From Aquisphaera giovannonii (GTDB lineage: Bacteria; Planctomycetota; Planctomycetia; Isosphaerales; Isosphaeraceae): 64,000 bases of DNA. Shown here piece after piece: positions 24,638-46,183 of this stretch. A program made the translations under genes and the position numbers. Numbering within the stretch: the first letter of the stretch is position 1; each line of letters begins with the position of its first letter. The notes beneath the pieces were generated by a model. That model made no database searches. It had not been told where the DNA came from and saw only the letters and a list, made by a program, of their open reading frames with translations. The stretch spans positions 6,758,001 through 6,822,000 of the forward strand of contig NZ_CP042997.1 in the NCBI RefSeq assembly GCF_008087625.1, read 5' to 3'.

Positions 24638-24694
24638 GCGGGCTTCATCGCCCGCGTGTTATTGACGTATGGCAAACTGTTTGACAAAGGTCAA
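24638..24694 (-). promoter_or_regulatory. Promoter, operator and 5' RATGAA hairpin (locus A)
   Basis: On the minus strand TTGACC (24689-24694), 17 bases, CATACG (24666-24671). The palindrome TTGAC-AAAG-GTCAA (24681-24694) overlaps the -35. Close to the expected transcription start is a hairpin with a 6-bp stem GCGGGC/GCCCGC and loop GATGAA (24638-24655). Loci B, C and D have the same loop with different stems. Confidence 0.6.
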
Positions 24695-24732
24695 GCGATT
24701 TGTGGGGCGGCCGAATGACCGCCCCAGTCCCA

Positions 24733-25002
24733 TCACTTCGCCGTCACCTGGTCCGCTTCCTTGCGGCCCATGGCGTCGGCCTTCTTCTGCTCGCGGATCC
24801 AGCGGTACGCCTCGCGGAGCAGCTCGGCCATCGGCAACAGATCGTCGCCATTCAGCGAGTCGGACTCCTTCCAGGTGTCGTCGCCGGTTTTGTAGGACCG
24901 CTGCGGGTTGACCGTGTAGTAGGTCTTGCCCTCGGTGCTGGTGTTCCGCCACACGACGACTTGCAGGCATCCGTCGCGGAATTTGATTGCTGGTTGGCTC
25001 AT
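24733..25002 (-). CDS. Conserved small protein, phage/plasmid type (89 aa)
   Basis: The protein starts MSQPAIKFRDGCLQVVVWRN, then KTYYTVNPQRSYKTGDDTWK and a C-terminal helix (LPMAELLREAYRWIREQKK). This belongs to a widespread family of short uncharacterised proteins in phages, plasmids and integrated elements. The gene has its own leader hairpin (locus D) and an AAAGGAA binding site, so it is a single-gene unit. No activity is known. Confidence 0.75.
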   Translation of the reverse strand: MSQPAIKFRDGCLQVVVWRNTSTEGKTYYTVNPQRSYKTGDDTWKESDSLNGDDLLPMAELLREAYRWIREQKKADAMGRKEADQVTAK

Positions 25003-25027
25003 AGTGCGTTTCCTTTCGATTTCCTGA

Positions 25028-25041
25028 ACGCTTCATTGCGT
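25028..25041 (-). promoter_or_regulatory. 5' RATGAA hairpin (locus D)
   Basis: On the minus strand ACGC-AATGAA-GCGT forms a short stem with the AATGAA loop, 26 bases before the ATG at 25002. A TTGACC lies 36 bases upstream (25078-25083), but the matching -10 is poor. The loop equals that of loci B and C; the stem differs. Confidence 0.45.
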
Positions 25042-25318
25042 CGGTGAGAAAACGCCCGAAGCCGCCAGAGACGGGCGGGTCAACCGAAAGGCCGAGGGTC
25101 CACCCCGTGGAAACGGCCTTGGCAGGTTGATCCCGGCCGGCTGCGGCTTCAGTTTCCCATCCCGGACGCATCTCGCTTCAGGAGCGATGGAACGCGGCTC
25201 GCCCTGACCAGCCTGGGATCCGCCGACTGTGCCCCACGTCGCCTGACGCCCCCCCCGGCTACACTGAGGGCTTTGCCGCCTCAGGGAACGAGCGCCCCCG
25301 GCACTGGAAGGGACATCA

Positions 25319-25429
25319 TGGACCCGATCTACTTCGAGACGCCCGCCGAGTACCGGGCCTGGCTGGGGTAGAACCACGCCACAGCGGGATCCCTGCTGCT
25401 TGGGTTCCACAGGAAGGGGGCGGGTTAGT
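25319..25429 (+). pseudogene. Fragment of a YdeI/OmpD-associated family gene
   Basis: The reading frame from ATG 25319 translates to MDPIYFETPAEYRAWLG, a TAG stop, then NHATAGSLLLGFHRKGAG and a second TAG. It matches the first 36 residues of the intact gene at 41128 (MEPSFFETPAEFRAWLAENH), with a stop where that gene has Glu. Nothing further of the family follows. The region 25003-25542 otherwise holds no gene. This is a decayed copy of a host-type gene inside the element. Confidence 0.75.
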
Positions 25430-25542
25430 GGCCGAAGTAAACTCTTGCTTTGACGGGACTTGCTTGATCCAATGAGTCGGTGGGAATGCCCGGTATATCG
25501 AGGCCGCACCCTCCCCCCAATCAGAAAGCGCGGGAAGCTGTG

Positions 25543-28080
25543 ATGAGACCCATAGGCATCGTCACGTGCGTGGTCGTCATCTGCGGAACCCTCTCGCAGT
25601 CTGCATTCGGTCAGAGCGAGCCATCCTACATCGATAAAATCGAAGTCAGACGATCGACGTCGCTCCCCGACGGTACGTCAATGGCGAACGATGAGTCGCT
25701 CGTTGCCTTCAAGGGTGTACCGACAGGTTCTCGATTGATCTGGAATGGAAGCGACTTCGGGCAATTTCGCAAGGCGAGACTCACGCAGATCCGAGACCCA
25801 CGACAGTTTGTCTACCAATTTCAGATCATTCGCCCCGATGGATCCTCGCTCGCAAGAACGATAAACGTAGGTCCTAAAGAATACATCGAAGTGTCTCTGA
25901 ACAGAGTTCTGGCAAAGAAGGTTGTCATCACCCAACTCGACTGTATTCGCCACGACGGGCCAGTATTCGATCGGCCCAGGTTGGTCTACCGAGCGGATAA
26001 GTCTCAGACCGCAAACGCCGTTCAGCAAAACCGAATGGTGAGCGGCGACTCGTGGGCAGTGCGGCTCCCCATCATCATGGAGCACGAAGCGTCGGTCGAG
26101 CTCTGGGATATGGATCGATTGAGCACCCCTGATCATCTGGGAACAATCCGAATCGACGTCGAGTCAAAAGACCGCAGGGGCGAGTTCAATTTTGATCCCA
26201 ATCGCAAGGGTGTCCTGTACAAAGTCGCGTGGCGAATCGAGCCTGACGATACGCTCTCGGAAGCGATGGCGAGGCAACTGCGCGATCTCGATACGAGGCA
26301 AGAATTCGACCAAACGCTCCAAACCCGCGTCGATAACGCTAGGGCGTTGAAAGAGGCCCAAAAGCGAGCAGCCGATCACGCGAAGGACGAGGCGGATCAA
26401 GCGGAAATCGCCGCTCGAAAGGCCCGGGAAGAATACGCAAAAGCGGTGCAGGACTCAGCGGACCGAAAAAGAGAGGCAGACGCCGCCCAGGCTCAAGCCG
26501 CAGCGGATGCAATCACCGCACCAGCGAAACGAGCTGCCTTGGAGACAGAAAAACGCAATAAGAAAAGCGACCTAGACCGCCTGGGAGATGAATTGAACAA
26601 CGCTATTGATGCCGTCAAGGACATCGCGAGGACGTTGATCGGCGATTTGGACGCCGCGAAGAGAACACGTGACCGTCTCCAAGGGAGAGTGGACGCCCTG
26701 AAGGACGAAATCGCACAAATTGACCAGGCACTCGTTGACTTGGACAAGTCCAGGCTGGACGCCATTCACGCAGTTGAGAAGTTTAATGTTGCTAAGGCTC
26801 TAGAGGACGGAAAGAAGTCAACGCAAGACGTAGCCGAGCGAGTAGAAGTCACGGTGTCTCAGGGTTACGAGCAGGCAAAGGACGGAGTCGAGAATGCTGT
26901 AAAAACGGTGCAGACTGCTCTAGAAATCTTTACAGCAAAAGACATTATCGTCTACCGGATCGAGAACGAGATGGCGTTCTCGTTGAACGTGTACACTGGG
27001 GCGTATGATGCCAAGCTGGACCTCGGCTTCGCCGGGGTCGAGATGGACACCGAGGACATCAAAAACCTCTTCCGAGGGCAGTTCAAGGTGCCGTCGGTCA
27101 ACCCGATCAAGCTGATCGCCGCCTCCTTCGGACAGAAGCTGAGTGAATCGAGCAAATACACGGTGTCGCGAGACTCTGCGCTTGGAGCGACCGATTCGCA
27201 CGTGTACGTCGCCTCCGAGAGATTCGTGCGCTGGGGTGGCCCGGAAACCGCAGCCAGGCTGATCGGAGCCAGCATCTTCGATGGAGGTAACCAAGCCCGA
27301 GCGGAAGCGCGGCAAGAACTCCTGCTCGAGTTCGACCGAATCTACTCGTGGGTGGCCCTTCGGGCGAAGGCAGACGCGCCACGACTCAGCCGAGAACTCT
27401 TCGCCGCCGCCTTGTCGAAGGGGTCGGTCGCCGTTCCAGAATTCACTCTGAGGCCGCTCACTGTTCCCTATGAATATCGGGTCGAAGTCATGGGTGAGGT
27501 GCCGTTGCCGGACGGGATCAAGGACATCCTTCGATCACGGCTAAACAACCTGATTCCCGGCGTTAACGGCGGCAATTTCGATCTCGATCACTATGGGTAC
27601 GCTATCGAATGGAAACCTAAAGAAAGCGACACTCATCAAAAGATGCTTGATCGCCTTGAGTCGGAGATGTTCCAAGGAACTTCCGGCGCAAGCGCCGCGA
27701 TGCAAGACGCAATGCGAGAGGCGGTCAGCCGGCTCGGCGGTAGCGATCTCGGAAAACTTGCGTCATTGGTCACCGCTGCTGACTTCGCGGCGGTGCAGAT
27801 CGAGAACGACATCAAGTCGCGGATCGAAGGCCAACTGGCCATCAAGAAGGAAGACCTAGCCAAGTGGTACGTTCCGGGTAGTCCCATCATCAAGCTGGAG
27901 GGAACGCCCCTCGGCCTTCGCTTTAAGGACTTCTTCTCAGGAATCGCGATGGGCAACAAGGGGCGTGCCGAGTTGGTCAACCTTGAGTTTAACGTTGAAA
28001 CCTTCACCTTCACAGGTAAAGCAAAGGTTATCCACGAGCACTCATGGGGAAGCCTCAGCGATCTGTTGTCGAACTTCTGA
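25543..28080 (+). CDS. Large exported coiled-coil protein (845 aa)
   Basis: The start at 25543 gives a signal peptide (MRPIGIVTCVVVICGTLSQS, with AFGQ just after). An N-terminal beta-rich region follows to about residue 240, then a long charged coiled coil (about 260-450) with Ala/Glu/Lys heptads. The C-terminal 400 residues are mixed and carry no motif I recognise. It is followed 84 bases later by an exported phospholipase-like gene in the same direction. Base composition is a little less GC-rich than the phage operons. The protein could be periplasmic or surface-exposed; function unknown. Confidence 0.7.
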   Translation: MRPIGIVTCVVVICGTLSQSAFGQSEPSYIDKIEVRRSTSLPDGTSMANDESLVAFKGVPTGSRLIWNGSDFGQFRKARLTQIRDPRQFVYQFQIIRPDGSSLARTINVGPKEYIEVSLNRVLAKKVVITQLDCIRHDGPVFDRPRLVYRADKSQTANAVQQNRMVSGDSWAVRLPIIMEHEASVELWDMDRLSTPDHLGTIRIDVESKDRRGEFNFDPNRKGVLYKVAWRIEPDDTLSEAMARQLRDLDTRQEFDQTLQTRVDNARALKEAQKRAADHAKDEADQAEIAARKAREEYAKAVQDSADRKREADAAQAQAAADAITAPAKRAALETEKRNKKSDLDRLGDELNNAIDAVKDIARTLIGDLDAAKRTRDRLQGRVDALKDEIAQIDQALVDLDKSRLDAIHAVEKFNVAKALEDGKKSTQDVAERVEVTVSQGYEQAKDGVENAVKTVQTALEIFTAKDIIVYRIENEMAFSLNVYTGAYDAKLDLGFAGVEMDTEDIKNLFRGQFKVPSVNPIKLIAASFGQKLSESSKYTVSRDSALGATDSHVYVASERFVRWGGPETAARLIGASIFDGGNQARAEARQELLLEFDRIYSWVALRAKADAPRLSRELFAAALSKGSVAVPEFTLRPLTVPYEYRVEVMGEVPLPDGIKDILRSRLNNLIPGVNGGNFDLDHYGYAIEWKPKESDTHQKMLDRLESEMFQGTSGASAAMQDAMREAVSRLGGSDLGKLASLVTAADFAAVQIENDIKSRIEGQLAIKKEDLAKWYVPGSPIIKLEGTPLGLRFKDFFSGIAMGNKGRAELVNLEFNVETFTFTGKAKVIHEHSWGSLSDLLSNF

Positions 28081-28164
28081 GACATGCTCTCACCGAGTTC
28101 GACGCGCTGAAATCCAGTGGGCCAATACTCTGATCCTGCCCCCCCCCGTTTTGAAGGGTTCGTT

Positions 28165-28923
28165 ATGAATTCGTCGCGATTTCGATACCTGACGGCGACG
28201 GCCGCGGCCCTCGCCGTGGTTCTTCTTACTTCCTTGACTTCCCAGGTCGCAGCTTGGGACAGCAGAAAGTTTGCCCACCAGCCGGTTCATCCCACCCATT
28301 CGTACTTCACTGAGTGGGCGATAGATTCCCTCAAGGCCGACTTCCCGGAAGTTGAACAGTTCCGCAGGGATCTCGTTGATGGAGCGAACGAGGAATTGCA
28401 CGAACTCAAGGTCACCGGCACTTCCCACGGAATCGATTTGGATGCCGCGCGCATCAAGCATAAAGGCACGAACGAAGGTTGCGACGACATTCAGGGTTGG
28501 TGGGATGATGCGGCCGCCGCTTACAAAGCGGGGGACAAGGCAAAAGCGTATTATCTCTTAGGAATTATGCTTCACATGGTTCAGGACATGGGAGTGCCAG
28601 CACACGCGAACAAGGTCTACCATCAGGGCAATCTTAAGGAATTCGACAACTTCGAGTTTCTTGGTGTGTCGAATTGGAAGCCGAAGTTCGACGACATCAA
28701 TCGCACCGACCCGGCTAACGCAGAGCCGTGGAAGTATTACGCCCTCAGCCAGGATTGGACGCACGCCGACGCACCCAACTACAACGATCGCGACAGTTTC
28801 TCGAAAACCTGGCTTCTTGCCAGCGCCGATGAGAAGAAGCTCTTCAGCAATCGAGAGGGGCGGACCTGTCACGTCACCATGTGGGCGATGAAAGCGGCCG
28901 CAAAGGCTTTCAAGTCGCTCTGA
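28165..28923 (+). CDS. Exported zinc-dependent phospholipase C/S1-P1 nuclease-like protein
   Basis: The 252-residue protein has a signal peptide ending SQVAA at residue 30, leaving Trp31 as the mature N-terminus. That is the hallmark of zinc-dependent phospholipases C, where the terminal Trp binds zinc. Further candidate ligands are His45 (PTHSYF), His137 and Asp141 in MLHMVQDMGVPAHA, and His147. The HxxxD and PxHA pattern matches the family. It probably cleaves phospholipids outside the cytoplasm. The large coiled-coil gene upstream may be its partner. The family call is from motif order; the substrate is unknown. Confidence 0.75.
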   Translation: MNSSRFRYLTATAAALAVVLLTSLTSQVAAWDSRKFAHQPVHPTHSYFTEWAIDSLKADFPEVEQFRRDLVDGANEELHELKVTGTSHGIDLDAARIKHKGTNEGCDDIQGWWDDAAAAYKAGDKAKAYYLLGIMLHMVQDMGVPAHANKVYHQGNLKEFDNFEFLGVSNWKPKFDDINRTDPANAEPWKYYALSQDWTHADAPNYNDRDSFSKTWLLASADEKKLFSNREGRTCHVTMWAMKAAAKAFKSL

Positions 28924-28953
28924 GTTTCCGTTGTGGCGAAGTAAGGACTGGTG

Positions 28954-29082
28954 TCAAAGTCGGAACCGCCAGTTCTCGACCGCCCACAGGCAGAAGAAGA
29001 AGCAGGAGAGGTTGAACCACCCCGGGCCGAGCACGATCGCCAGGAAGAGCCAACAGGCCGCTTCGTTCAGGATGTGGGTCAC
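28954..29082 (-). CDS. Small membrane protein (42 aa)
   Basis: A GTG at 29082 behind GGAGGG opens a 42-residue protein with two hydrophobic stretches (ACWLFLAIVLGPGWF and LSCFFFCLWAV). It ends the minus-strand operon that starts near 30.7 kb. Function unknown. Confidence 0.55.
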   Translation of the reverse strand: MTHILNEAACWLFLAIVLGPGWFNLSCFFFCLWAVENWRFRL

Positions 29083-29129
29083 GCGGCCCTCCGCTCGTGC
29101 CGGTACCGCTGGGGCTTCCCGGCCTCGTA

Positions 29130-29468
29130 TCAGAAGGCCACGCGGGGCGGCTCCTCGAAGCAGGCTACGACGATGGGCTTTGCCTCGGAGTACCGCCGCT
29201 CCGCCTTCCGGAGGGTCGCGCCACTCTCCCGGGCGGTGTCGATGATCAGCAGGCAGCCGAGATGCGTCGGGCACTGTGAGCCGTAGGGGATGAACGGTAC
29301 CCCGAGCAGGTGGGAGGCATAGACGGCCGCTACGGCTCCCGAGCGGCCGGGGCCGGTCACGCTGCCGATCTGGTCCGCGGGGAGGCTGGCGGCGACCTCG
29401 ACCAGGCGGGCGTGGAACTCGGGTTCGGTGACGACGCGAACCGGCACTCTCGGAGAGCCGCCGGTCAT
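29130..29468 (-). CDS. Phosphoribosyltransferase-like protein (112 aa)
   Basis: The protein contains SVTGPGRSGAVAAVYASHLL and LLIIDTARESGATLRKAERR. The second is a good match to the PRPP-binding loop of type I phosphoribosyltransferases (two acidic or polar residues, then SGATL). The length is short for a full enzyme, so it may be a minimal or regulatory PRTase. It could act in nucleotide salvage during phage-like replication. It is coupled by ATGA to the gene before it. Confidence 0.65.
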   Translation of the reverse strand: MTGGSPRVPVRVVTEPEFHARLVEVAASLPADQIGSVTGPGRSGAVAAVYASHLLGVPFIPYGSQCPTHLGCLLIIDTARESGATLRKAERRYSEAKPIVVACFEEPPRVAF

Positions 29469-29719
29469 GGCTGGAACCCTTCCCACGACTCAGGCGGCTC
29501 GATGCTGCCACCCGGCGTCAGGATGCGACGGGAGATGCCCTCGGTGATGAAGAAGGCCGCGACCTCCTCGGGCGTCTGGCCGAGGTTGCCCTCCTCGGCG
29601 ATGGCGCGCAGGTAGTGCATCTGCCTGGCGTCGATCAGCGGCACCGCCAAGACCTTGACCACCTCGCCGGGGCTTCGATTCAGCTCGCGGGCGGCCTTGG
29701 GGCGATGGCGGGCGGTCAT
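29465..29719 (-). CDS. Hypothetical protein (84 aa)
   Basis: The protein starts MTARHRPKAARELNRSPGEV and has a helical core (RQMHYLRAIAEEGNLGQTPE, then EVAAFFITEGISRRI), which resembles an RHH-like or small helical DNA-binding fold. It overlaps both neighbours by ATGA. Not recognised. Confidence 0.6.
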   Translation of the reverse strand: MTARHRPKAARELNRSPGEVVKVLAVPLIDARQMHYLRAIAEEGNLGQTPEEVAAFFITEGISRRILTPGGSIEPPESWEGFQP

Positions 29720-30123
29720 GGGCAAAGCCCCTTGACCTTTTCGATCACAGCCCGGAGTTCTTCCTCGCGAAGCAGCGACTGTCGGTCGACGCCGTATTCT
29801 TGGAGCACCTCGAGGATAGCTTTCTGCCCAGGCCACTCGCCGAGCAATTGGGTGACCCGGAGCATTTCTTCGATCAGCCGCTTGCGGACTGCGGAATACT
29901 CCGGACGGATGAACTCCGAGAGCGGAGGCAACGCAGGAGCAGGTTCGCTCGGAGTTTGGCCGGGCACAGCTCCACCGCGGCGATAGGCGCCGAAGCAGGG
30001 CCTGCACCAGTGCTGGCGGCCGTCTTTGCTGGAGCGGTTGACGGCGAAATTGCTGATCGATTTGGTTCCACCGCATTTCGCGCACTTCTTTTCCGTCTGC
30101 GGGCAAGGCGGGGCGGCGGTCAC
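29716..30123 (-). CDS. Zinc-ribbon protein (135 aa)
   Basis: A GTG at 30123, overlapping the previous stop, starts a 135-residue protein with CAKCGGTKSISNFAVNRSSK followed by HWCRPCF, a two-CxxC zinc ribbon near residues 13-42. This ribbon is typical of phage proteins, sometimes fused to HNH nucleases, but no HNH follows here. The rest is helical. Possible nucleic-acid-binding factor. Confidence 0.65.
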   Translation of the reverse strand: MTAAPPCPQTEKKCAKCGGTKSISNFAVNRSSKDGRQHWCRPCFGAYRRGGAVPGQTPSEPAPALPPLSEFIRPEYSAVRKRLIEEMLRVTQLLGEWPGQKAILEVLQEYGVDRQSLLREEELRAVIEKVKGLCP

Positions 30124-30722
30124 GGCTTCTTCGCTTCCTTCAGAGCGTCCTCCTTGCAGATGCCGCATGAGCGAAGCTTCTGGTAAATCCGACGCTGCTC
30201 CGACGTGAGCAGGCTCAGCTCCGGGTCGGGCAAGCCGCCCTTGCGGTTGTTGGAAGGCAGCTTCGTGATCGAGCCGCCCTTGGCGATAAAGCCCTTCACG
30301 GCCTCTTCCAGGTCTTGCTTCATTTCCTTTGGCATCTCGCTTACCTTGCTGGGTGTTACGCCATACTCGATTTCCTTGTAACGGCGCAGCATCTTCATGG
30401 CTTCTGCCAGCACGAGGTTGTATTGTCCCTGGCTCAGGATCTCCTTGGCTGCGGTGATGAAGAATCGCTCGATTCCGTTGGTGTCCTTGAAAACTTTAAG
30501 TTCCGAAAGCTGAGCCTGAACCACCGCCTTTTCACGGCCGAGCTGCTTCCGTGTCGGATGGTTGGCCGGTAGCTCCGACAGCCGCTTGTCGATAGCGGCG
30601 ATCTTCGTCTTCAGCACATCGCGTTTCTGGTCATCCGTCATGATTTCATCGCCGTGGGCGAAGTTAAACGGATTCCTCGCGTCGGACTGATGCTGCATGA
30701 ACTGGCTGTTTCCCTTATACAT
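30120..30722 (-). CDS. Hypothetical protein (200 aa)
   Basis: The gene begins MYKGNSQFMQHQSDARNPFN with AAGGAGG upstream. It is charged and helical throughout, with a possible coiled coil at 30-75 and a C-terminal segment QRRIYQKLRSCGICKEDALK. It leads the operon 30722-28954. Not recognised. Confidence 0.6.
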   Translation of the reverse strand: MYKGNSQFMQHQSDARNPFNFAHGDEIMTDDQKRDVLKTKIAAIDKRLSELPANHPTRKQLGREKAVVQAQLSELKVFKDTNGIERFFITAAKEILSQGQYNLVLAEAMKMLRRYKEIEYGVTPSKVSEMPKEMKQDLEEAVKGFIAKGGSITKLPSNNRKGGLPDPELSLLTSEQRRIYQKLRSCGICKEDALKEAKKP

Positions 30723-30755
30723 TCAACCTCCTTGCGCCCCTCGGGGCATTGCTGG

Positions 30756-31163
30756 TTACCAAGAGCCCGAATCCGAGCCACCGCACGATCCGCTGTTGAA
30801 ACTCGACCCGGTGTCGTAACTGGAGCCGGTGTCGCAGCTGCTGCTTGTGTCGCTCGGGCTCGAGATCGACTCCGACCTGGAGGTCGATTCGCTCAGGCTC
30901 GCGCCGACCATGCCGCCGGCGAGGCTCCCGCCCGCCGCGTAGCCGAGCAGGGCGCTATCGGTCGCCATGCCCACGGCCATTGAGAGGGCGAAGTTATCGC
31001 TGTCGTCCTCCCGCCTCGTCTGGACAGCGGGTGGGGACCTGCGAGGCGGCCGGATGGCGGCGTCGCGGTGCTTGAGGAGGTCGACCGCCTCCCGCTGATA
31101 TAGCCGAAGCTTCGGCTCCTGCTTCGCTTCTGGCTTCTTCTTCCTCTTGAATAGTCCGAACAT
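30756..31163 (-). CDS. Protein with Ser/Gly/Asp-rich tail (135 aa)
   Basis: The N-terminus is basic (MFGLFKRKKKPEAKQEPKLR). A hydrophobic Gly/Ala-rich segment (about 70-88) follows, and the last 45 residues are almost entirely Ser, Asp, Thr and Gly with repeats of the kind DTGSSYDTGSSFNSGSCGG. Many short proteins of phages and bacteria end in such low-complexity tails. Function unknown; the hydrophobic middle could insert in a membrane. Confidence 0.6.
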   Translation of the reverse strand: MFGLFKRKKKPEAKQEPKLRLYQREAVDLLKHRDAAIRPPRRSPPAVQTRREDDSDNFALSMAVGMATDSALLGYAAGGSLAGGMVGASLSESTSRSESISSPSDTSSSCDTGSSYDTGSSFNSGSCGGSDSGSW

Positions 31164-31194
31164 AGTCTGGCCTCCTTGCCGTTGGTCGGTTGCG

Positions 31195-31581
31195 TTAATC
31201 GGTTATGTCCTCGGGTTTGCCGTCAACTTCGCCCCAGATGTTCTCGTTGTGCCACTTGGCGAACGCCCGGATGAAGTCGAGAGCAGCCCCGGTAGTCTGG
31301 TCGATCATGGCGTCGATCGGCGTCCGGCCGGGTCGCCACTGGTTGCCGGTCTCTTCCCGGAAGGTGGCCATTACGTCGTCACGCGTCAGGGCGTACCGGA
31401 CGCTGCCGACCCAGGCCGAGGCCATGAGCGGATGAACGGGCATCATGTCGGCGAGCGGCGATTCAGGCTCGTCGTCTTGAACCTGCTCCATGAGCTTCCG
31501 CCGCTTGTCCGGCACGACCTTGGCGGGCATGCGCCTCACAGCTTTGGCGACGGGGTTGCGGGGCTTCGGCGGGCGGCTCAT
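31195..31581 (-). CDS. Hypothetical protein (128 aa)
   Basis: The start at 31581 overlaps the previous stop (ATGA). The protein reads MSRPPKPRNPVAKAVRRMPA, then a soluble domain with ASAWVGSVRYALTRDDVMAT and GAALDFIRAFAKWHNENIW. This pattern occurs in uncharacterised phage proteins. No role is known. Confidence 0.6.
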   Translation of the reverse strand: MSRPPKPRNPVAKAVRRMPAKVVPDKRRKLMEQVQDDEPESPLADMMPVHPLMASAWVGSVRYALTRDDVMATFREETGNQWRPGRTPIDAMIDQTTGAALDFIRAFAKWHNENIWGEVDGKPEDITD

Positions 31582-31814
31582 GGCTGCCCGCTCCAAAGAG
31601 TTTCCGACCAGTGCTGCGGCCAGAAAAGGGAAGCGACTAAAGCCTCGAAACGCACCATATCTTCAGAGCACGGGGCGTTCTGGCTGTGCTTACGATCATC
31701 TGCACACTCCGCCCGTTCTTCCGCCCTGAATTGCTTGACCGCGTGGCCGTAGGTGAACGCGCTCATGGCCAACCAGAATGACGCAAGCAGCGCCAGCTTC
31801 TTTCCCGCGCTCAT
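31578..31814 (-). CDS. Small membrane-anchored protein (78 aa)
   Basis: One N-terminal membrane helix (KKLALLASFWLAMSAFTYG) is followed by a charged Cys-containing segment (ERAECADDRKHSQNAPCSED). Coupled by ATGA to both neighbours. Unknown. Confidence 0.6.
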   Translation of the reverse strand: MSAGKKLALLASFWLAMSAFTYGHAVKQFRAEERAECADDRKHSQNAPCSEDMVRFEALVASLFWPQHWSETLWSGQP

Positions 31815-32395
31815 ACCACCTCCGCCGCTGCCTTGGCTGCCGGGGGCTTGGGGAGCGGCATCCAGTGGGTGAACCACGAGGCCGCGTAGTACACCTGCTC
31901 CGTGTCGGCGAAGTCATAGCTGTGCATGGTCGGCAGGCGGCGGATTTTTCTCACATCGCCGTCGCTTTGCAGACCGATGAACCACTCGCTCACGCCTCGG
32001 CAGCCCACGTCCTCGGTGATTTCACCCTTCGGGGCCGTCTCTATCGGCTGCCAGCCGTCATCGTGCAGGGCGGTGGCTCGGTGCTTGGCGAGGGCGGCGC
32101 GGGCTTTTTCGACATCGGCAAACAAGTCCGGCGCTATCCGTTTGTGGACGCTATCTGCTATCTGGTCGTTGTAGGCTCTTGGTAAGAGCAGTTCCAGCGC
32201 CTCGGCAAGCTCCCTTGCCAGCCCGCTTTCGGAGCGGGTGTCTACAGTCCCGATATGCCGCTCGACTGCGGAGCGGATATAGGTCAGGCCAAGCACTTTG
32301 ACGTCTCCGCGAAACTCGCGGGCGTACAACGCCTCCTCGGCGATGTCGACCATGATTCGATTTACCAGCTCCTCGTGTTTCTGTCCTTCAGCCAT
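31811..32395 (-). CDS. DUF551 protein (194 aa)
   Basis: The start at 32395 follows AAGGAAGG. The N-terminal half is helical; the C-terminal half has DGWQPIETAPKGE, EWFIGLQSDG and SWFTHWMPLPKPP. The W-x-P-IETAP start and THWMPLP end are the hallmark of DUF551, common in phages and prophages. No biochemical activity is known. The gene lies in a minus-strand operon driven from locus B. Confidence 0.8.
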   Translation of the reverse strand: MAEGQKHEELVNRIMVDIAEEALYAREFRGDVKVLGLTYIRSAVERHIGTVDTRSESGLARELAEALELLLPRAYNDQIADSVHKRIAPDLFADVEKARAALAKHRATALHDDGWQPIETAPKGEITEDVGCRGVSEWFIGLQSDGDVRKIRRLPTMHSYDFADTEQVYYAASWFTHWMPLPKPPAAKAAAEVV

Positions 32396-32397
32396 AG

Positions 32398-32586
32398 CTA
32401 TCCTTCCTTCCTGTTGCGTTTCCTGAGTATCTGCCGGATGCGTTTCTCCAAGGCAGGGTGAATCTCGGTCGCACCGGCCACCCAGCGGCGAACGGTGCGG
32501 TCGTTGACCCGCATCTCGCGGGCGAGGTGGGATTGCCATCCTCGCCCGTACTGGTCGCCGAGTTTTCTGAGCTCGGCGGGGGTCAT
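32398..32586 (-). CDS. Small HTH protein (62 aa)
   Basis: The protein (MTPAELRKLGDQYGRGWQSH, then LAREMRVNDRTVRRWVAG) is a compact helix-turn-helix. It aligns well with the 70-residue protein at 45186 (GWGWQTMLASHLKVSDRTIR), sharing the W-Q-x2-LA and V-x-DRT-x-RR positions. Its start overlaps the previous stop by ATGA. Probably a local regulator in the style of phage Cro proteins. Confidence 0.7.
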   Translation of the reverse strand: MTPAELRKLGDQYGRGWQSHLAREMRVNDRTVRRWVAGATEIHPALEKRIRQILRKRNRKEG

Positions 32587-32942
32587 GCGGCTTTCGGTAG
32601 CGACTTGCCGATTATCGCTAGAGCGGAGTCTGGCCAGTATGTGCCGGAATCCCAACCGGGCACCTCAGATTCCATGCGAAAGCAGCTGATGACTTCGCCG
32701 TCTATTTCTAGCTGAGGCGTAGCCCAGGTCGAAGCAAGATACGTGTATGTTTCCTCGCGGGGAACGGGTTCTCCGTCTCGCAGAATTTCTCCGCCGGTCC
32801 ATTCCCAATCTTGCGACAAACCAGCGGCTGCCTGCTTTGCGTTTCTTTCCTTAATGATCTGAGCCGCTTTGTCCCAATCGAAAACTTTCAGTTCCTTGTC
32901 ACGGTTTGCTTCACCCATCAAGAATGCCGACATTGAATCCAT
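32583..32942 (-). CDS. Hypothetical protein (119 aa), first gene after leader B
   Basis: The ATG at 32942 has GTGGAG at the correct distance. An in-frame ATG at 32972 lies in the loop of the leader hairpin and has no binding site. The protein starts MDSMSAFLMGEANRDKELKV; residues 40-90 contain GLSQDWEWTGGEILRDGEPV. Not recognised, but of the short-phage-protein kind. It opens the operon that runs to 31195. Confidence 0.6.
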   Translation of the reverse strand: MDSMSAFLMGEANRDKELKVFDWDKAAQIIKERNAKQAAAGLSQDWEWTGGEILRDGEPVPREETYTYLASTWATPQLEIDGEVISCFRMESEVPGWDSGTYWPDSALAIIGKSLPKAA

Positions 32943-32963
32943 AATTTCTCCACAATCTTCGCC

Positions 32964-33018
32964 GGGCTTCATTGCCCTTGCGTGAGGCGACAGTAGGGCA
33001 GGCTGCCCTAATCGTCAA
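32964..33018 (-). promoter_or_regulatory. Promoter, operator and 5' RATGAA hairpin (locus B)
   Basis: On the minus strand TTGACG (33013-33018), 17 bases, TACTGT (32990-32995) is a strong promoter. The spacer holds a perfect 7-bp-arm palindrome, TAGGGCA-N3-TGCCCTA (32994-33010). Downstream is a hairpin GGGC-AATGAA-GCCC (32964-32977). The bases around the -35 (AATCGCTTGAC) are identical to locus A. Confidence 0.7.
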
Positions 33019-33138
33019 GCGATTTCTTATGCGTATCCAAACAAGAACGCCGCACCGGTTGGGCCCTCGCTTTCTGTGCTTCAAGGCAAGCCAACCTCCG
33101 CCAAGGATCGCCCAAACCGGGATTTTACTGTACGCCTG

Positions 33139-33167
33139 TTGACTTCCTGTCGATAACTGGTTCCAAT
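33139..33167 (+). promoter_or_regulatory. Promoter of the DHFR-like gene
   Basis: TTGACT (33139-33144), 17 bases, TCCAAT (33162-33167), reading toward the gene at 33211. It lies in a 268-base region between divergent units that holds no other gene. Confidence 0.5.
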
Positions 33168-33210
33168 CCCCCGAATCCGAGCGGCCCTACGTCTCCTCCG
33201 AGGACCTCTA

Positions 33211-33855
33211 ATGCCCAAAGTCGTAGTCCGCATCTTCGCCTGTTCCCTGGATGGTTTCGGAGCAGGCGTCCAGCAGTCCGCCGACGAACCCTTCGGCAAG
33301 AACGCCTTCCAGATCATGAACTGGTTCAAGCCGACCCGCACCTTCCAGTCCATGATCGGGCGCGAGGGCGGAACGACTGGGCTGGACGACAGCTACGCCT
33401 CCAGGGCCTTCGAGGGCATCGGAGCCTCCATCATGGGCCGCAACATGTTCAGCCCCCTTCGCGGCCCCTGGGAGAACGAGGACTGGAAGGGCTGGTGGGG
33501 CGACAACCCTCCGTTCAAGCACCCGGTCTTCGTGCTGACGCACCATCCCCGGCCCACGCTTGAGTTCGAGAACGGCACCTCCTTCCACTTCGTCAGCGGC
33601 TCGCCGGAAGAGGTGCTGGAGCAGGCCCGGGCCGCGGCCGGCGGCAAAGATGTCAAGGTCAACGGCGGCACCTTCACGGTCCGGTCGTTCTGGAAGGCCC
33701 GGCTCCTCGACGAGTTGCATCTGGTCATGGCCCCGGTCTTCGTGGGGGAGGGCGAGCGACTCCTGGGCGGGCTGGGAGTGGAGGAGGACTACGAGGTGGC
33801 CGCCTTCGAGGCCTCCGAGGCGGCGGTGCATTACCGGATCGTGAAGAAGGGCTGA
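33211..33855 (+). CDS. Dihydrofolate reductase-family (RibD C-terminal) protein
   Basis: The 214-residue protein begins with a strand and loop KVVVRIFACSLDGFGAGVQQ, and later shows ASIMGRNMFSPL, PVFVLTHHPRP and LDELHLVMAPVFVGEGERLL. These are typical of the YyaP/RibD-C type of dihydrofolate-reductase-fold proteins, which bind NADPH. It is not a folate-specific DHFR by sequence. Such genes are common in chromosomes and look out of place between phage operons. It has its own promoter and is followed by two other small enzyme-fold genes. Confidence 0.85.
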   Translation: MPKVVVRIFACSLDGFGAGVQQSADEPFGKNAFQIMNWFKPTRTFQSMIGREGGTTGLDDSYASRAFEGIGASIMGRNMFSPLRGPWENEDWKGWWGDNPPFKHPVFVLTHHPRPTLEFENGTSFHFVSGSPEEVLEQARAAAGGKDVKVNGGTFTVRSFWKARLLDELHLVMAPVFVGEGERLLGGLGVEEDYEVAAFEASEAAVHYRIVKKG

Positions 33856-33880
33856 GACGGGCCATCAAGGAGGCACCAGC

Positions 33881-34315
33881 ATGTCCGTTAAACGGATGGA
33901 TAACGTCCTCATCGTTGTTGACGACCTCGAAGCCACCAAGGCGTTCTTCCTGGAACTGGGTCTCACACTCGAGGGCGAGACGACAGTCGAAGGGGCTGCC
34001 GTCGGCGAACTGATTGGACTCAAGGATGTCCGGTCCACCATCGCGATGCTCCGAACCCCCGATGGCCAGGGTATTGAGCTCGACAAATTCCACGCGCCCG
34101 ACGCGGTCAGGTTCGGGCCCGTCGAAGCCCCGGTGAACGCGATGGGCTACCGCCGCGTCATGTTCGCCGTCGACGGCATCGACGATCTCGTCGCGCGGAT
34201 GCGAACCCACGGGGCCGAGATTATTGGCGAGATGCGGTACGGCGACGCCTACCGGCTGGCCTACATCCGCGGGCCCGAGGGCATCATCGTCGGGCTGGCC
34301 GAGCAGCTCGGGTAG
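33881..34315 (+). CDS. VOC-superfamily (glyoxalase-like) protein
   Basis: The 144-residue protein has the paired beta-alpha-beta-beta-beta modules of the vicinal-oxygen-chelate fold: NVLIVVDDLEATKAFFLELG at the N-terminus, FAVDGIDDLVARMRTHGAEI in the second half, and a final YIRGPEGIIVGLAEQLG strand containing the usual metal-site Glu. Such proteins act as lyases, dioxygenases or antibiotic-binding resistance proteins; the substrate here is unknown. It lies 25 bases after the DHFR-like gene and is probably co-transcribed. Confidence 0.85.
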   Translation: MSVKRMDNVLIVVDDLEATKAFFLELGLTLEGETTVEGAAVGELIGLKDVRSTIAMLRTPDGQGIELDKFHAPDAVRFGPVEAPVNAMGYRRVMFAVDGIDDLVARMRTHGAEIIGEMRYGDAYRLAYIRGPEGIIVGLAEQLG

Positions 34316-36933: not shown

Positions 36934-36936
36934 CCG

Positions 36937-38300: not shown

Positions 38301-38301
38301 G

Positions 38302-39604: not shown

Positions 39605-39875
39605 AGGCCTCCTTGTGGGTTGGGACGCGGGGGCCGGTCCTTCCCCGGCCTTCCATGCAGCTTATGGCGCATGGCGTCGCTTTGATCGCTCCCCGCGAGG
39701 GATGCTGCGGGCCGGGCTAGCACCGTCTGAGGCGTGGCAATCAGGCACCCGGTGCTCATCCTCCACGCCGCCGCAGCGATCTGACCCTAGCGCCCAACCT
39801 AATAGCCGTCAACGATTTCCGCTTCAGGCACCTTCGTGTCCAGCGACCGGCATCGCCCGTCCGTCCGGGATCGCT

Positions 39876-39881
39876 TAGAAT
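39876..39881 (+). promoter_or_regulatory. -10 box of an apparently leaderless gene
   Basis: TAGAAT (39876-39881) ends six bases before the ATG at 39888. This is the same arrangement as upstream of the MarR gene. No convincing -35 is visible. Confidence 0.4.
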
Positions 39882-39887
39882 CCGCCC

Positions 39888-40433: not shown

Positions 40434-40456
40434 GTTCAAGGAAGGAGCGGCCCGTT

Positions 40457-41122: not shown

Positions 41123-41127
41123 GGCAG

Positions 41128-41712: not shown

Positions 41713-41748
41713 GGCACGGACGGTACGCTGGGAAGTCGGCCGGTAGAC

Positions 41749-42543: not shown

Positions 42544-42785
42544 CAGGCGGGTTCCTTCGATTGCTCCCGCGGAGGGTAGGCCGATCCGGCTGGAGGTGCA
42601 AGCGGTTGTTGCGCCTGTCCGGGGTTGGCGGCGGACCGCGCCGTCAGCTCTTCCTCGTAGAGCCGGTATGCTCGCTGCCGCGTCTTCTCCGAGTCGGGCC
42701 AGCCGCCTTCCTCCCTGGCCTGCTGCACGAAGGCGGCGAAGGCCACGGAGTGGAAGGGGTCGTCCCAGAAGGGATCGGCGGTCAT
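42543..42785 (-). CDS. Small hypothetical protein (80 aa)
   Basis: The protein ([20 protein letters not shown], then [20 protein letters not shown]) is a helical acidic domain with a Pro/Gln-rich tail. It is coupled to both neighbours by overlaps. The N-terminal W-D-D-P-F-H-S-x-A pattern is found in short phage proteins. Function unknown. Confidence 0.6.
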
Positions 42786-43186
42786 GCCGCCTGCTCGCGT
42801 CTGGCTTCTCGCCGGGCAAGAGCATTCAGGCGGCCGATAACGGAATTCACACGCCGATTTAGCTTCCTCGCTATCTCGCTGATCGTCGCCCCACTCGATC
42901 GCATCTCCAGAGCAATCTGGTCTTCTTCAGGGGTGAAACGACGGACCAGGTGATTGCCCCGCTTGGTCACGGCGGGTCCCTTGATCCCGTCCCATGATCG
43001 CCACGCCGATTTGGGCGGTTCGACGCCCAGTCGGCAGCAATGCCAGCTCACGGTTTCCCGAGAGCACCCGAGCTTCTTGCCGATCCACTCGTAGGAATGG
43101 CCAAGCTCCCTGAGTCTCACGATCTCTTCAATCTCGTCCTCTGTCAGGCGGCGTCTGCTAGTCATGATTGTGTTTGCTTTCTTCAT
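42782..43186 (-). CDS. Two-HTH DNA-binding protein
   Basis: The 134-residue protein carries two helix-turn-helix units: [20 protein letters not shown] near 24-43 and [20 protein letters not shown] near 84-103, the latter followed by [20 protein letters not shown], which resembles GcrA-type binding. It probably regulates phage genes. The leader holds a GC hairpin (CCCCGCGGGG near 43212-43221). No recognisable operator can be assigned. Confidence 0.75.
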
Positions 43187-43237
43187 AAATCCTCCGTGAA
43201 TGGTGGGGCGACCCCGCGGGGAGCCGCCCCGGTTCCT

Positions 43238-45208
43238 TTATGCGGCCTTCTTGCCCTTCTTCGCCTTTGCGGGCTTGGGCTCGGGCGCGGCCATGAACGC
43301 CATGCCCTTCGGCAGCCAGTTCTTCACCCGGTCGATCTGCTCCGGCGTCCCGCCGTAGCGATCCGGGTCCGAGAACGCCTTCTGCAGCTCTGAGGCGATG
43401 TCGCCCTTCTTTTCGTTGGCGTTCTTCGCGGCCCACGTCTCGCCACGCTCGCCGCCTATCAGCTCACGCCCGACTTCAAGCAGATGGTCCTTGGTGACCC
43501 GGCTCAGGAAGTTGTCCTTCGTCGGGCGCCAGTGGTCGGCCACGTTCACGCCGGTCTGGGCCAGGGCGACGTCGTAGGCGGTCGGCTGGTTGCCTTCGTC
43601 CAGCTTGGGCTGGAGCGTCATGGCCACGCAGTAGGCCAGCAGCGACTGCTTCTGGTAGTCGGAAAGCAGCTGGAAGGCGAGGAACTGGTCGGCCTCCGTC
43701 CCGGCCTCCAGCCAGCCCCTGGGGAGGTCCTCGGCGGCAGGCTCGATCTGGGCCTTCAGGAAGTCGCGGGCGTCCTTGCCGGTATACAGGGCGAACTCGC
43801 GGCTGAAGCTGACGTTCGGCCCATCGCTCGGTCCTTGCATCGTCAGGGCGTTCTTCGCCACCTTGAAGACCAGCAGGTCGTAGGCGATGGCCGGGTTGGT
43901 GGCGATGGCGACCTGGGCCGCACCGAGGCGATAGGCCGCCAGGTCCCGCTTCAGCGACTCAGGCATGCCCTTGGGCTGCTCGGCGGGCTGGTCGTCGTCC
44001 AGATGGGTGGCGGCTGCCTTGGCGAGGGCCTTTTTCGCTTCCCGCTTCACCAGGCCGCGTTCGACGGTGAACGTCCCGGAGTGGGAGATGTACGCGTAGC
44101 AACCAGCGAGCTTCATCTGCTCGGGGTCGAACTTGGCGTAGGCCGCAATCTGGTTCGCGAGATCGTCGAGCAGGCCATCAAGCTCATCGTTCCGCTTGTT
44201 CAGCCGGTCGAGTTCCTCCTCGTCCTCTGTGGCGTCGATCTGCTCGCCCACGGCAAGCTGCTCCTCCTCCAGTCGCTTCAGCTCCGCCATAAGTTCTTCG
44301 GGCGCATCCACGGGTTCGGCTTCAAGTCGGCTGCAGCCGGACGTCACCCGCCAGTCGTGCTCCTGATCCACCTGGACCCAGCCCCAGCCCTCGGCCTGAA
44401 GTTCCTTCTCGGCCAGCTTCAGCTTCTCGCTGACCAGGGCGTTCAGCAGCTCGGGGTTTTCCAGATAGACTTCCTCGCCAAAGAGGTCGGTCCGCTTCGT
44501 GCCGCCCGCGTCGAGGTAGGTGTTCATCCCGACGAATTTCACCAGCTTGTCCTCAGCCTCCACCAGCTGCTCGGTGAGGATCGACCGGATCTCGCCGGGG
44601 CGCTTCAACTGCCAGTCGTTGAGCGATTCGTAGACCGAGATCTGTTTCTGATGGTCGTCCGTGACGGCGAAGGCCATCAGGGCATCCAGCGTGAGTTCCT
44701 CGGCCCTGTACGCGGCGATCAGCTCAGGGGCGACCCGGGCCAGCGTCATCCGCTGCTCGACGAGCCTTGGGGTGATGCCGAACCGCGTGGCGACCTGTTC
44801 GGCGGTCTGGCCCAGTTCGATCAGCTTGGCGAAAGCCTCGAATTGGTCGGCCGGGTGCATGGCGAGCCGTACGACGTTCTCGGCCAGGCTCTTCTCGTAA
44901 GCCTGCTCCTCGAGTTCGACCCGGCAGGGAACGGCAAAATCCTCGGGTAAGTGCCCTTCGGCCTGCAGGGCCTTCAGGGCTTCGAGGCGGCGGGCGCCAG
45001 CGATGACGAGGTATTTGCCCTTTTTGCCCTCGGTGACGACCAGGTTTTGCAGCAGGCCGTGGGTGAGGATGGACGCCTTCATCTCGTCGCAGGCTGCTTC
45101 GGAGACCGTTTTCCTGGCGTTTAACGGGGACTTTTCGAGCTTGCTTATCTCGATTTCCCGGATGCCGGGTAGCTTGCCCATGGAATCAATTTGCTTGGGG
45201 TTTTTCAT
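43238..45208 (-). CDS. Large ParB-like (ParB/RepB/Spo0J N-terminal) protein
   Basis: The 656-residue protein has a ParB N-terminal domain: LEKSPLNARKTVSEAACDEM, GKYLVIAGARRLEALKAL and the HTH-containing LGQTAEQVATRFGITPRLVE. The last 400 residues, with an acidic coiled coil near 310-365, are typical of the long ParB-like proteins of plasmids and ICEs. These bind DNA and may act in stabilisation or as nucleases. No ParA gene is next to it. It overlaps the HTH gene by 23 bases, so the two are co-transcribed. Confidence 0.88.
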   Translation of the reverse strand: MKNPKQIDSMGKLPGIREIEISKLEKSPLNARKTVSEAACDEMKASILTHGLLQNLVVTEGKKGKYLVIAGARRLEALKALQAEGHLPEDFAVPCRVELEEQAYEKSLAENVVRLAMHPADQFEAFAKLIELGQTAEQVATRFGITPRLVEQRMTLARVAPELIAAYRAEELTLDALMAFAVTDDHQKQISVYESLNDWQLKRPGEIRSILTEQLVEAEDKLVKFVGMNTYLDAGGTKRTDLFGEEVYLENPELLNALVSEKLKLAEKELQAEGWGWVQVDQEHDWRVTSGCSRLEAEPVDAPEELMAELKRLEEEQLAVGEQIDATEDEEELDRLNKRNDELDGLLDDLANQIAAYAKFDPEQMKLAGCYAYISHSGTFTVERGLVKREAKKALAKAAATHLDDDQPAEQPKGMPESLKRDLAAYRLGAAQVAIATNPAIAYDLLVFKVAKNALTMQGPSDGPNVSFSREFALYTGKDARDFLKAQIEPAAEDLPRGWLEAGTEADQFLAFQLLSDYQKQSLLAYCVAMTLQPKLDEGNQPTAYDVALAQTGVNVADHWRPTKDNFLSRVTKDHLLEVGRELIGGERGETWAAKNANEKKGDIASELQKAFSDPDRYGGTPEQIDRVKNWLPKGMAFMAAPEPKPAKAKKGKKAA

Positions 45209-45398
45209 GGTACTGCTTTCCTTTCAGTTTATGTTTAACATACAGGCGAATCGCCTCAGCCTCCGCCGCGGTGATCCGACTGCTGCCGGACACCTTGCGG
45301 CGGATGGTTCGGTCGCTCACCTTCAGGTGGGAGGCCAGCATCGTCTGCCAGCCCCACCCGAGGAGCTCACCTAACTCGATGAGTTCCTGGCTTTTCAT
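45186..45398 (-). CDS. Small HTH protein (70 aa)
   Basis: The start at 45398 shares a base with the previous stop. The protein reads MKSQELIELGELLGWGWQTM, LASHLKVSDRTIRRKVSGSS and a final helix. It aligns with the 62-residue protein at 32398, so both are members of one family of mini-HTH regulators. It overlaps the ParB-like gene, which it may control. Confidence 0.7.
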   Translation of the reverse strand: MKSQELIELGELLGWGWQTMLASHLKVSDRTIRRKVSGSSRITAAEAEAIRLYVKHKLKGKQYHEKPQAN

Positions 45399-46105
45399 CA
45401 GTTGTCGAACCAGAAGACGATGCGGACTTCCTCGGGCTTGCCGAGCCTCAGGAGCTGGGGGATCGTGTCTGACCAGAAGCTGCGGACGGACTTGTAATAG
45501 GGCTGCTCCCATTCGACTCGACAGTGAACGTTCGACAGCAACTCGTGGACTTTGTCCTCTTGGCGATACCAATCGCCTCCCGTGACGGTCTCGATGCGGC
45601 GGCGCATTTCCTCTTCCGAGACCTTTTCGATCTGGGCTCCGAAGATATCCCCGCTGTAGCTCTCCGGGGATTCACCACGTCCACGCCGCCAACGGTTCCA
45701 TTCGTAGTATTCGGCGGCGGAGACATACCCTCGATGCTTCGTGGTTTGCGTCCAGTCGTAGGCAAGCAATTCGGCGACCGTGAACCACGAATGGCTGTGG
45801 CCGTCGCCATCCCATCGATCCGAATCCGCCTTCACCGGCTCGCTCACGTCGTCCGGTAAGCCGCGCGGATCGTCGATCGGGACAAATCCATTGCCTGTGT
45901 CGATCCCCGCGAACCCGCGCCCGTTGCGAACGTCGGCGAGGATGGCGAAGAGGCTGTAGTTTCGCCCGCTGTAAAAGCGATTCTCATACGGAATGGCTAA
46001 TTTCGGCTCGCCCTCGTCGGCGTATTTGTTAGGCTCCCAACGGTCGGCCAACTGCCAGACACCGTCTACTTGCTTTTCGACGTAAAAGTGTATATCACAA
46101 CCCAT
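45398..46105 (-). CDS. Phage-type hypothetical protein (MGCDIHFYVE family)
   Basis: The 235-residue protein begins MGCDIHFYVEKQVDGVWQLA and continues with YSGRNYSLFAILADVRNGRG, a combination found in many phage, plasmid and island proteins of unknown function. It starts behind AAAGGAATCAGT and is the first gene after leader C. The C-terminal part is Trp- and Arg-rich. No activity is known. Confidence 0.75.
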   Translation of the reverse strand: MGCDIHFYVEKQVDGVWQLADRWEPNKYADEGEPKLAIPYENRFYSGRNYSLFAILADVRNGRGFAGIDTGNGFVPIDDPRGLPDDVSEPVKADSDRWDGDGHSHSWFTVAELLAYDWTQTTKHRGYVSAAEYYEWNRWRRGRGESPESYSGDIFGAQIEKVSEEEMRRRIETVTGGDWYRQEDKVHELLSNVHCRVEWEQPYYKSVRSFWSDTIPQLLRLGKPEEVRIVFWFDN

Positions 46106-46123
46106 ACTGATTCCTTTCAGTTA

Positions 46124-46183
46124 GTGCAGGGCTTCATTGCCCTGCACGAATATCCAATTAGGCCAATTTGTCCTAAGTGTAAA
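46124..46183 (-). promoter_or_regulatory. Promoter, operator and 5' RATGAA hairpin (locus C)
   Basis: On the minus strand TTTACA (46178-46183), 17 bases, TAATTG (46155-46160). TTAGG-N9-CCTAA (46158-46176) lies within the promoter spacer. The transcript should start close to a 9-bp hairpin GTGCAGGGC/GCCCTGCAC with loop AATGAA (46124-46147), the longest stem of the family. The AUG in the loop would open a 6-codon frame (MKPCTN) that stops before the real gene. Confidence 0.7.

Follow-up and report, generated by a model that had tools for sequence, protein, structure and literature searches.

Background

Stem-loops at the 5' end, such as those of ompA, papA, recA and vacA, are known stabilisers of bacterial messages, CUUCGG hairpins occur in the intercistronic regions of phage T4, and in operators of the MS2 coat type the start codon lies within the hairpin or adjoins it. 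Among antiterminator RNAs, which allow readthrough of terminators, lambda boxB has a boxA beside its hairpin and HK022 put has two stem-loops. Stem-loops at the 5' terminus are reported to slow the decay of bacterial mRNAs (PMC7509114), and standby elements near the 5' end are described (PMC3936740, PMC7708055). In the T4 gp43 leader hairpin, the loop is UAAC in T4 and RB69, UAAA in RB49 and CAAC in a variant from systematic evolution of ligands by exponential enrichment (PMC3014915). Here we describe a leader hairpin with an AAUGAA loop, which came to attention at four places on the minus strand of a 64,000-nt stretch of the planctomycete Aquisphaera giovannonii (contig NZ_CP042997.1, positions 6,758,001 to 6,822,000), hereafter the window. 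The hairpin itself is real: sequence comparison establishes that it exists, that it is specific to one strand, that its geometry is regular and its stem covaries, and that it is spread over more than one phylum. Mobile genes of planctomycetes and of some other bacteria often carry it in their leaders, probably at the start of the message.

The hairpin in the window

A first-pass annotation of the window had claimed four stem-loops with an RATGAA loop in minus-strand leaders. All four are present in the sequence at the positions claimed, and the measured distances from stem to start codon agree with those claimed to within about one base:

24638..24655, minus strand: site 1 hairpin, GCGGGC-GATGAA-GCCCGC, 19 nt from stem to ATG
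25028..25041, minus strand: site 2 hairpin, ACGC-AATGAA-GCGT, 25 nt from stem to ATG
32964..32977, minus strand: site 3 hairpin, GGGC-AATGAA-GCCC, 21 nt from stem to ATG
46124..46147, minus strand: site 4 hairpin, GTGCAGGGC-AATGAA-GCCCTGCAC, 18 nt from stem to ATG

These occurrences exceed chance: GGGCRATGAAGCCC with at most one mismatch has 3 matches in the window against 0.09 expected from shuffles, and GCRATGAAGC has 5 against 0.50, the fifth match lying at 12436. The window has 108 hairpins, both strands taken together, in which a 6-nt loop is adjoined by GC and borne on a stem of 4 or more pairs; in this set no loop other than AATGAA and its reverse complement is found twice or more. The exact 14-mer is found six times in the whole 10.5-Mb genome, three times in the window and three times in apparently coding sequence. 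The leader RNAs of site 1 (-17.7 kcal/mol, z -2.43) and site 4 (-23.6 kcal/mol, z -4.26) are predicted to fold more stably than their shuffles. The model R1, whose sequences include sites 1, 3 and 4 themselves, scores sites 1 to 4 at 29.2, 24.9, 40 and 30.3 bits, respectively. The site 4 leader also holds a second predicted hairpin at 46106-46121, ACUGA-AAGGAA-UCAGU, with the Shine-Dalgarno sequence in its loop and its end at the start codon.

Distribution in viruses and bacteria

A search of 2.9 million viral contigs for the leader pattern, consisting of GGGCAATGAAGCCC followed by GGAG and by ATG at leader distance, gave 117 stretches. It gave 9 when the letters of the loop were put in reverse order (AAGTAA) and 3 when the loop was turned to the other strand (TTCATT), which indicates that the element is specific for both sequence and strand. 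By a three-frame stop test 84 of the 103 distinct viral matches are noncoding, and 98 of the 103 are followed by an open frame of at least 40 codons. Since the context of the 8 distinct AAGTAA matches is similar (5 noncoding, all 8 with an open frame downstream), the stronger contrast lies in the counts rather than in the context. Although the pattern admitted distances of 17-33 nt from the end of the loop to the ATG, 68 of 97 viral leaders fall within 23-25 nt. Two contigs (L056 and L361) carry three copies each. A looser viral scan, CAATGAAG with AGGAG and ATG, gave stem lengths near chance, with one pair in 85 of 119 non-redundant sites among the matches listed; it was set aside in favor of a GC-closed core, the counts from which in viral contigs are likewise among the matches listed.

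Four matches from BLAST searches were read in context. The isolated Paracoccus phage vB_PkoS_Pkon1 has one copy before a small gene adjoining an XRE regulator gene, and Proteus phage PM 93, one of 12 Proteus records, has GGC-AATTCA-GCC before AGGAG and ATG, that is, a hairpin in the same place with another loop. The Vibrio phage and Sinorhizobium matches proved on reading not to be the element. Across 84,980 species genomes the exact leader pattern occurs in only 38 stretches, and those that look genuine by eye are mainly alphaproteobacterial, several of them in phage-like surroundings. Among genomes selected because they hold one copy, a Sulfitobacter genome has three within about 6.3 kb and a Roseovarius genome three within about 12 kb. 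A contig assigned to a Candidatus Altiarchaeales bin (G306 contig C245) has four R1 matches within 8.5 kb; it may be misbinned, since its leader style is bacterial or phage-like.

Within the planctomycetes, the exact 14-mer occurs in 34 of the 99 genomes searched, that of A. giovannonii included. Of 29 loci in relatives that were read, the majority appeared by eye to be coding, and four (L007, L008, L009 and L018) show a promoter, the hairpin, a Shine-Dalgarno sequence and an ATG in succession. Further copies came from two wider searches, one by pattern in 297 genomes of the class and one by model in 118, each set including the A. giovannonii genome. Leaders read in context were thereby recognized in at least 10 other genomes (G018, G019, G039, G040, G041, G055, G070, G091, G141 and G255); the last two have several copies each, and the loop in G018 is AATCAA. 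As only matches read in context were counted, these genome counts are lower bounds. R1 has matches at E <= 1 in 91 of the 118 genomes, the genome of origin included, many of the low-scoring ones looking on reading like coding or chance matches, and many GATGAA matches in relatives likewise appear coding. In Zavarzinella formosa DSM 19928 there are nine R1 matches at E <= 0.1. The search that the first-pass annotation had proposed, with a model built from the sites in related planctomycetes and phages, has in this way turned up further copies.

Conservation of the stem

The contention that the stems covary is weak inside the window, where three of the four share GGGC, and it is sequences outside the window that bear it out. 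A first test takes viral sites by the core GCAATGAAGC with GGAG and ATG, without selection on pairing farther out. Among the sites listed, the bases of the third pair are complementary in 31 of 51 noncoding sites, where 15.1 are expected, and with a smaller excess in 20 of 54 coding sites, where 13.6 are expected. GC, CG, AT and TA all occur as third pairs, and the excess in noncoding sites persists when those with GGGC/GCCC arms are removed (22 of 42 against 10.9). Compensation is also seen within a single contig, L056, which has AGGC/GCCT twice and GGGC/GCCC once; in the viral leaders as a whole GGGC/GCCC arms are present in 85 of 86, by ascertainment.

A second line of evidence comes from leaders of genes homologous to that behind site 2, which resemble a fifth window hairpin that was absent from the first-pass annotation:

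46472..46488, minus strand: fifth hairpin, GGCCCC-ATGGT-GGGGCC, of the same type as the commonest site 2-family leaders
46232..46450, minus strand: gene behind the fifth hairpin, 72 aa, MTKQIIQDQISN..., no Pfam family match

By eye, the leader of this hairpin (46448-46488) shares GGAA-C and AAGGAGAA with the site 2-family leaders. The alignment A6 joins the fifth hairpin to 16 leaders found through homology to the site 2 protein, out of a set of 25 (A4) in which one, L404, had been found by motif and the others by homology. Its hairpins were cut by eye and restricted to 5-nt loops, with two misaligned rows kept; seven leaders with 6-nt loops, L512 with a 4-nt loop and L501 without a clean hairpin were left out. 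In these 17 leaders, six of the seven pairs show changes on both sides, and the covariation score was not reached by any of 500 shuffles. A similar count on the alignment A3 was set aside as biased, nearly all its 40 sequences having been chosen for a stem of at least 4 pairs. The compensatory changes in the stem, along with the copies found elsewhere, sustain the original proposal of a selected RNA structure in message leaders.

Preference and variation in the loop

The 117 viral loci contain 222 hairpins with a 6-nt loop at leader distance, of which 97 have AATGAA, as ascertained by the search. The others include CTTCGG (16), AGGGCA (6, mainly the same site read in a shifted register), AATGAC (4), AACGAA (3), AACAAC, AATCAA and AACAAA (2 each) and GATGAA (1), the remainder occurring at most twice each. 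The loop consensus is RAYNAM, and AUG is its most frequent instance rather than a requirement. The CTTCGG hairpins lie 24-32 nt before start codons in these loci (L592, L603, L605, L620, L643 and others). In a 31-kb viral contig, L579, four leaders have the form GTATAATAG...GGGC or GGGGC with the loops AACGAA or AACAAC; these are a sister form of the element.

The loop had been described as constant, which holds roughly for the form found before mobile genes; across orthologous leaders loops differ. Strong hairpins are present in 18 of 23 site 2-family leaders, against a shuffle mean of 2.96 and a maximum of 7. Their commonest loops are AUGGU and AAUGGU, AAUGAA being a minority, and the short stem of site 2 itself falls below the strong-hairpin cut. 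An AUG is found in the loop of 9 of the 18, against 4.7% of shuffled hairpins. Three leaders of a secreted fasciclin-like protein, apparently chromosomal (L449, L458 and L459), carry the exact GGGCAATGAAGCCC hairpin, which in Pararhodobacter and Rhodobacter is preceded by a TGAAAC promoter like those of extracytoplasmic function sigma factors. Because of these three, the fasciclin leaders of Rhodobacteraceae were searched as a set: 16 of 28 have a strong hairpin, against a shuffle mean of 1.98 and a maximum of 6, with many different loops, and the AUG in 3 of the 16 loops, against 5.8% of shuffled hairpins, settles nothing. Since orthologs keep the hairpin while its loops differ, the position of the hairpin is more general than its loop.

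Promoters and the probable start of the transcript

The promoter sequences that can be read upstream of three of the window hairpins are:

24666..24694, minus strand: putative promoter of site 1, TTGACC, 17-nt spacer, CATACG
32990..33018, minus strand: putative promoter of site 3, TTGACG, 17-nt spacer, TACTGT
46155..46183, minus strand: putative promoter of site 4, TTTACA, 17-nt spacer, TAATTG

All three had been regarded as good promoters, a description that suits only site 3, where TTG[AC] and TANNNT are spaced from the loop as they are in relatives. The second box is weaker at sites 1 and 4: the first box of site 1 stands at -45 from the loop as in relatives, its second, CATACG, is not TANNNT, and site 4 also fails the TANNNT filter. 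No promoter is visible in the sequence at site 2, and a simple promoter scan of 23000-34000 picked up no promoter at sites 1-3. Both boxes are found in 12 of 24 planctomycete sites outside the window, TTG[AC] at -43 to -47 and TANNNT at -20 to -25 from the loop. The 12 come from nine genomes (the four loci named above with L405, L407, L409, L412, L413, L469, L471 and L472); L418, with the stem TGC and boxes at -44 and -18, was left out of the count. This constant distance would place the transcription start about 5-7 nt before the stem. Among non-redundant viral leaders 40 of 86 have a -10-like box, which in 27 of the 40 lies at -21 to -17 from the loop. The promoter geometry thus fits the earlier placement of the hairpin within the first bases of the transcript, and it is on this geometry that the placement depends. 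At second copies in five loci (L057, L063, L089, L102 and L148) no promoter is visible, and the stem still ends 20-23 nt before the ATG.

Many of the promoters contain palindromes between their boxes, such as TAGGGCAGCCTGCCCTA at 32994-33010 in the spacer of site 3, the imperfect TAGGACAAATTGGCCTA at 46159-46175 in that of site 4, and TAGGGCCAATGGCCCTA in several phages. Spacer palindromes with arms of at least 5 occur in 32 of 88 leaders, three of these palindromes being CTTCGG hairpins; shuffles give 10.8 (maximum 18), and an upstream control stretch gives 19. They look like operators of different repressors. They may bear a likeness to the KorC operator; a search with its sequence yielded 0 occurrences among the matches listed.

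Genes behind the hairpins and their surroundings

The genes that follow the four hairpins are:

23944..24618, minus strand: gene behind site 1, 224 aa, MHYHLEVILPP...
24733..25002, minus strand: gene behind site 2, 89 aa, MSQPAIKFRDGCLQVVVWRN..., a widespread small planctomycete protein
32583..32942, minus strand: gene behind site 3, 119 aa, MDSMSAFLMGEANRD...
45398..46105, minus strand: gene behind site 4, 235 aa, MGCDIHFYVEK..., phage family phrog_10141 (PHROG E 3.3e-65)

The site 1 product has no Pfam family and a weak match to phrog_10079 (E 0.0038), and the products of sites 2 and 3 match no Pfam or PHROG family. Homologs of the site 2 protein are present in 96 of 297 genomes (E <= 0.001) and the site 4 gene in 2 of 297, A. 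giovannonii being counted in both. Viral homologs, the presence of copies on phage contigs and their clustering point to the mobility of the carrying genes. A tie of the hairpin to particular gene families was considered and ruled out by homolog leaders of sites 1 and 4 without the AATGAA form. Elsewhere in the window, the gene at 43238-45208 encodes 656 aa with a ParB domain at the N-terminus and is close to phage family phrog_7783; a helix-turn-helix gene at 42782-43186 adjoins it, and the pair suggests an integrated element. A 259-aa protein encoded at 22426-23205 matches D123, with the ATP-grasp R2K families below the cut-off.

Function of the hairpin

The reading that we favor, tentatively and at somewhat less than even confidence, is that the hairpin acts in cis at the 5' end of the mRNA as a stabiliser and insulator of mobile genes in phages, prophages and integrated elements. 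The element consists of a stem, mostly of 4-9 GC-rich pairs, and a 6-nt loop, mostly AAUGAA (consensus RAYNAM), closed by G-C and C-G. Transcription would begin 3-7 nt before the stem, which ends some 20 nt upstream of the start codon and thus borders the ribosome-binding site without entering it. The hairpin would most likely block 5'-end-dependent decay of the RppH/RNase E or RNase J type, and would also insulate the Shine-Dalgarno region from upstream sequence, so that the ribosome site is kept open. The outcome would be raised expression of small single-gene units in new hosts. This interpretation is drawn from a layout that equals that of the known 5' stabilising stem-loops, and the 16 CTTCGG hairpins that stand at this position in the viral loci with the element speak in its favor. 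Action in the message rather than in the DNA is suggested by the strand specificity of the element, its proximity to the probable 5' end, its narrow distance from the ATG and its occasional occurrence without a promoter.

Several observations weigh against a stabilising role. The whole leaders of site 3 (z -0.93) and of a viral contig (L109, z -1.00) barely beat their shuffles in predicted stability, and that of site 2 does no better than its shuffles (z 0.27). As only 40 of the 86 viral leaders have the -10-like box and 8 of the 86 follow a CTTCGG hairpin, some copies need not be 5'-terminal. The ortholog of the site 4 gene in G040, 77% identical, has another hairpin in place of the AATGAA one, which is also found in none of 27 distinct leaders of viral homologs of the site 1 and site 4 genes (from 33 loci, 32 of them site 4 homologs and one, L557, a site 1 homolog). 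Moreover, stabilisation by itself would not call for a constant loop, and in mobile genes the loop is under constraint. This strong bias suggests either a compact and stable fold of the loop or its contact with a conserved host component.

The second of these options leads to a less probable but serious alternative, in which conserved host machinery recognises the loop and the hairpin, instead of passively stabilising the message, serves as a translation enhancer or standby element. Such machinery could be the 30S platform or a ribosomal protein, RNA polymerase, or an RNA-binding protein of a general kind. The same loop recurs in planctomycetes, viral contigs and Rhodobacteraceae, its variants obey RAYNAM, the distance to the start codon is narrow and is held by the promoterless second copies, and 5'-proximal standby elements are on record (PMC3936740, PMC7708055). 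However, fasciclin orthologs have hairpins with very different loops, which a receptor would not tolerate, and no partner has been identified, none having been searched for; a receptor alone fails to account for the free loops in orthologous leaders. Binding of a phage protein had been proposed at the outset. Recognition by a protein of the phage or element itself, controlling an accessory gene set, would suit the three copies each in Sulfitobacter, Roseovarius, L056 and L361, and has a precedent in the T4 gp43 leader hairpin with its defined loop (PMC3014915). We regard it as improbable, given that unrelated phages and planctomycete elements would need to have such a protein in common, and that the same loop is found in planctomycetes, the Paracoccus phage, Rhodobacteraceae and three fasciclin leaders.

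A start-codon decoy had also been suggested at the outset. In favor of a decoy or short upstream frame are the AUG in AAUGAA, GAUGAA and AUGGU loops and its excess in the strong hairpins of the site 2 family (9 of 18 against 4.7% of shuffled ones). In the window the frames are as first given, namely in frame at sites 1 and 3, out of frame at site 2 and opening a 6-codon frame at site 4, but over 70 leaders they are distributed 25/24/21, that is, at random; loops with no AUG (AACGAA, AACAAC and AATCAA) occupy the same place, and by eye no well-placed Shine-Dalgarno sequence precedes the loop AUG in the leaders read. A decoy is accordingly very improbable. We give equally little credence to action at the level of DNA, as an operator or another site with arms that are inverted repeats by happenstance: GGGC/GCCC arms are by far the commonest (with the ascertainment noted above) and spacer palindromes are frequent in these promoters too, but the reverse-complement orientation hardly ever precedes a gene (3 against 117), promoterless copies exist and the arms covary. 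Least credible of all is a chance likeness of unrelated hairpins. The coding appearance of many GATGAA matches in relatives, the difference of site 2 from the other three sites and the largely chance nature of loose-pattern matches would be in keeping with it, but the enrichment in the window over shuffles, the viral counts against both loop controls and the promoter geometry in planctomycetes contradict it, and for the GGGC-AATGAA-GCCC form it is already refuted.

Stabilising 5' stem-loops are known gene by gene, and a sequence-defined, strand-specific version spread across phyla would amount to a message-protection signal of mobile DNA's own and would supply a portable expression tag. On a more speculative and rather unlikely reading, the AAUGAA hairpin would be a portable RNA 5' cap, whose loop some conserved component of the bacterial cell recognises. 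Its independent use by phages and integrated elements, in planctomycetes, alphaproteobacteria and other bacteria, would then make their messages stable and translatable in any host. The element separates a stabilising structure from a recognised loop, two things that are usually confounded, and direct tests are possible, since a hairpin of 14 nt lends itself to swapping, to scrambling or to replacement of its loop by UUCG.

Comparison with known systems

The earlier statement that no described RNA family has this form agrees with our searches of Rfam 15, in which only a tRNA reached the gathering score over the whole window, and the one leader scanned permissively (L360, E <= 10) gave two matches, both far below gathering. 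In the literature text searched the 14-mer was not found, and the papers with a shorter spelling look unrelated by title; the titles and abstract openings of the topical papers listed describe no such hairpin. We therefore regard it as a variant, as yet uncatalogued, of the known 5' stabilising stem-loops.

With the ompA type it shares a stem-loop in the leader, upstream of the Shine-Dalgarno sequence, and promoter geometry would put it, too, at or near the 5' end. It also shares a structure kept with compensatory changes (six of seven pairs), GGGC arms being very common in the mobile-gene form. Unlike the ompA type, it has a strongly preferred loop (RAYNAM, mainly AAUGAA) and recurs before unrelated mobile genes in different phyla. 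It resembles the phage CUUCGG hairpins in being short, stable and GC-rich and in its position in the same viral loci. Its loop is nevertheless RAYNAM and not C(UUCG)G, so that the CTTCGG hairpins form a separate set; by eye, many of these directly follow the stop codon of the preceding gene, whereas a -10-like box is found with 40 of 86 AAUGAA leaders. In contrast to the MS2 coat type, the ATG in the window lies 18-25 nt downstream of the stem, and the frame of the loop AUG is random. The T4 gp43 operator is likewise a leader hairpin with a defined loop upstream of the ribosome-binding site; it autoregulates one specific gene, lies some 40 bases upstream and includes sequence overlapping the ribosome-binding site (PMC3014915). 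The hairpin described here differs from it in standing before many genes, in different phyla, and with another loop.

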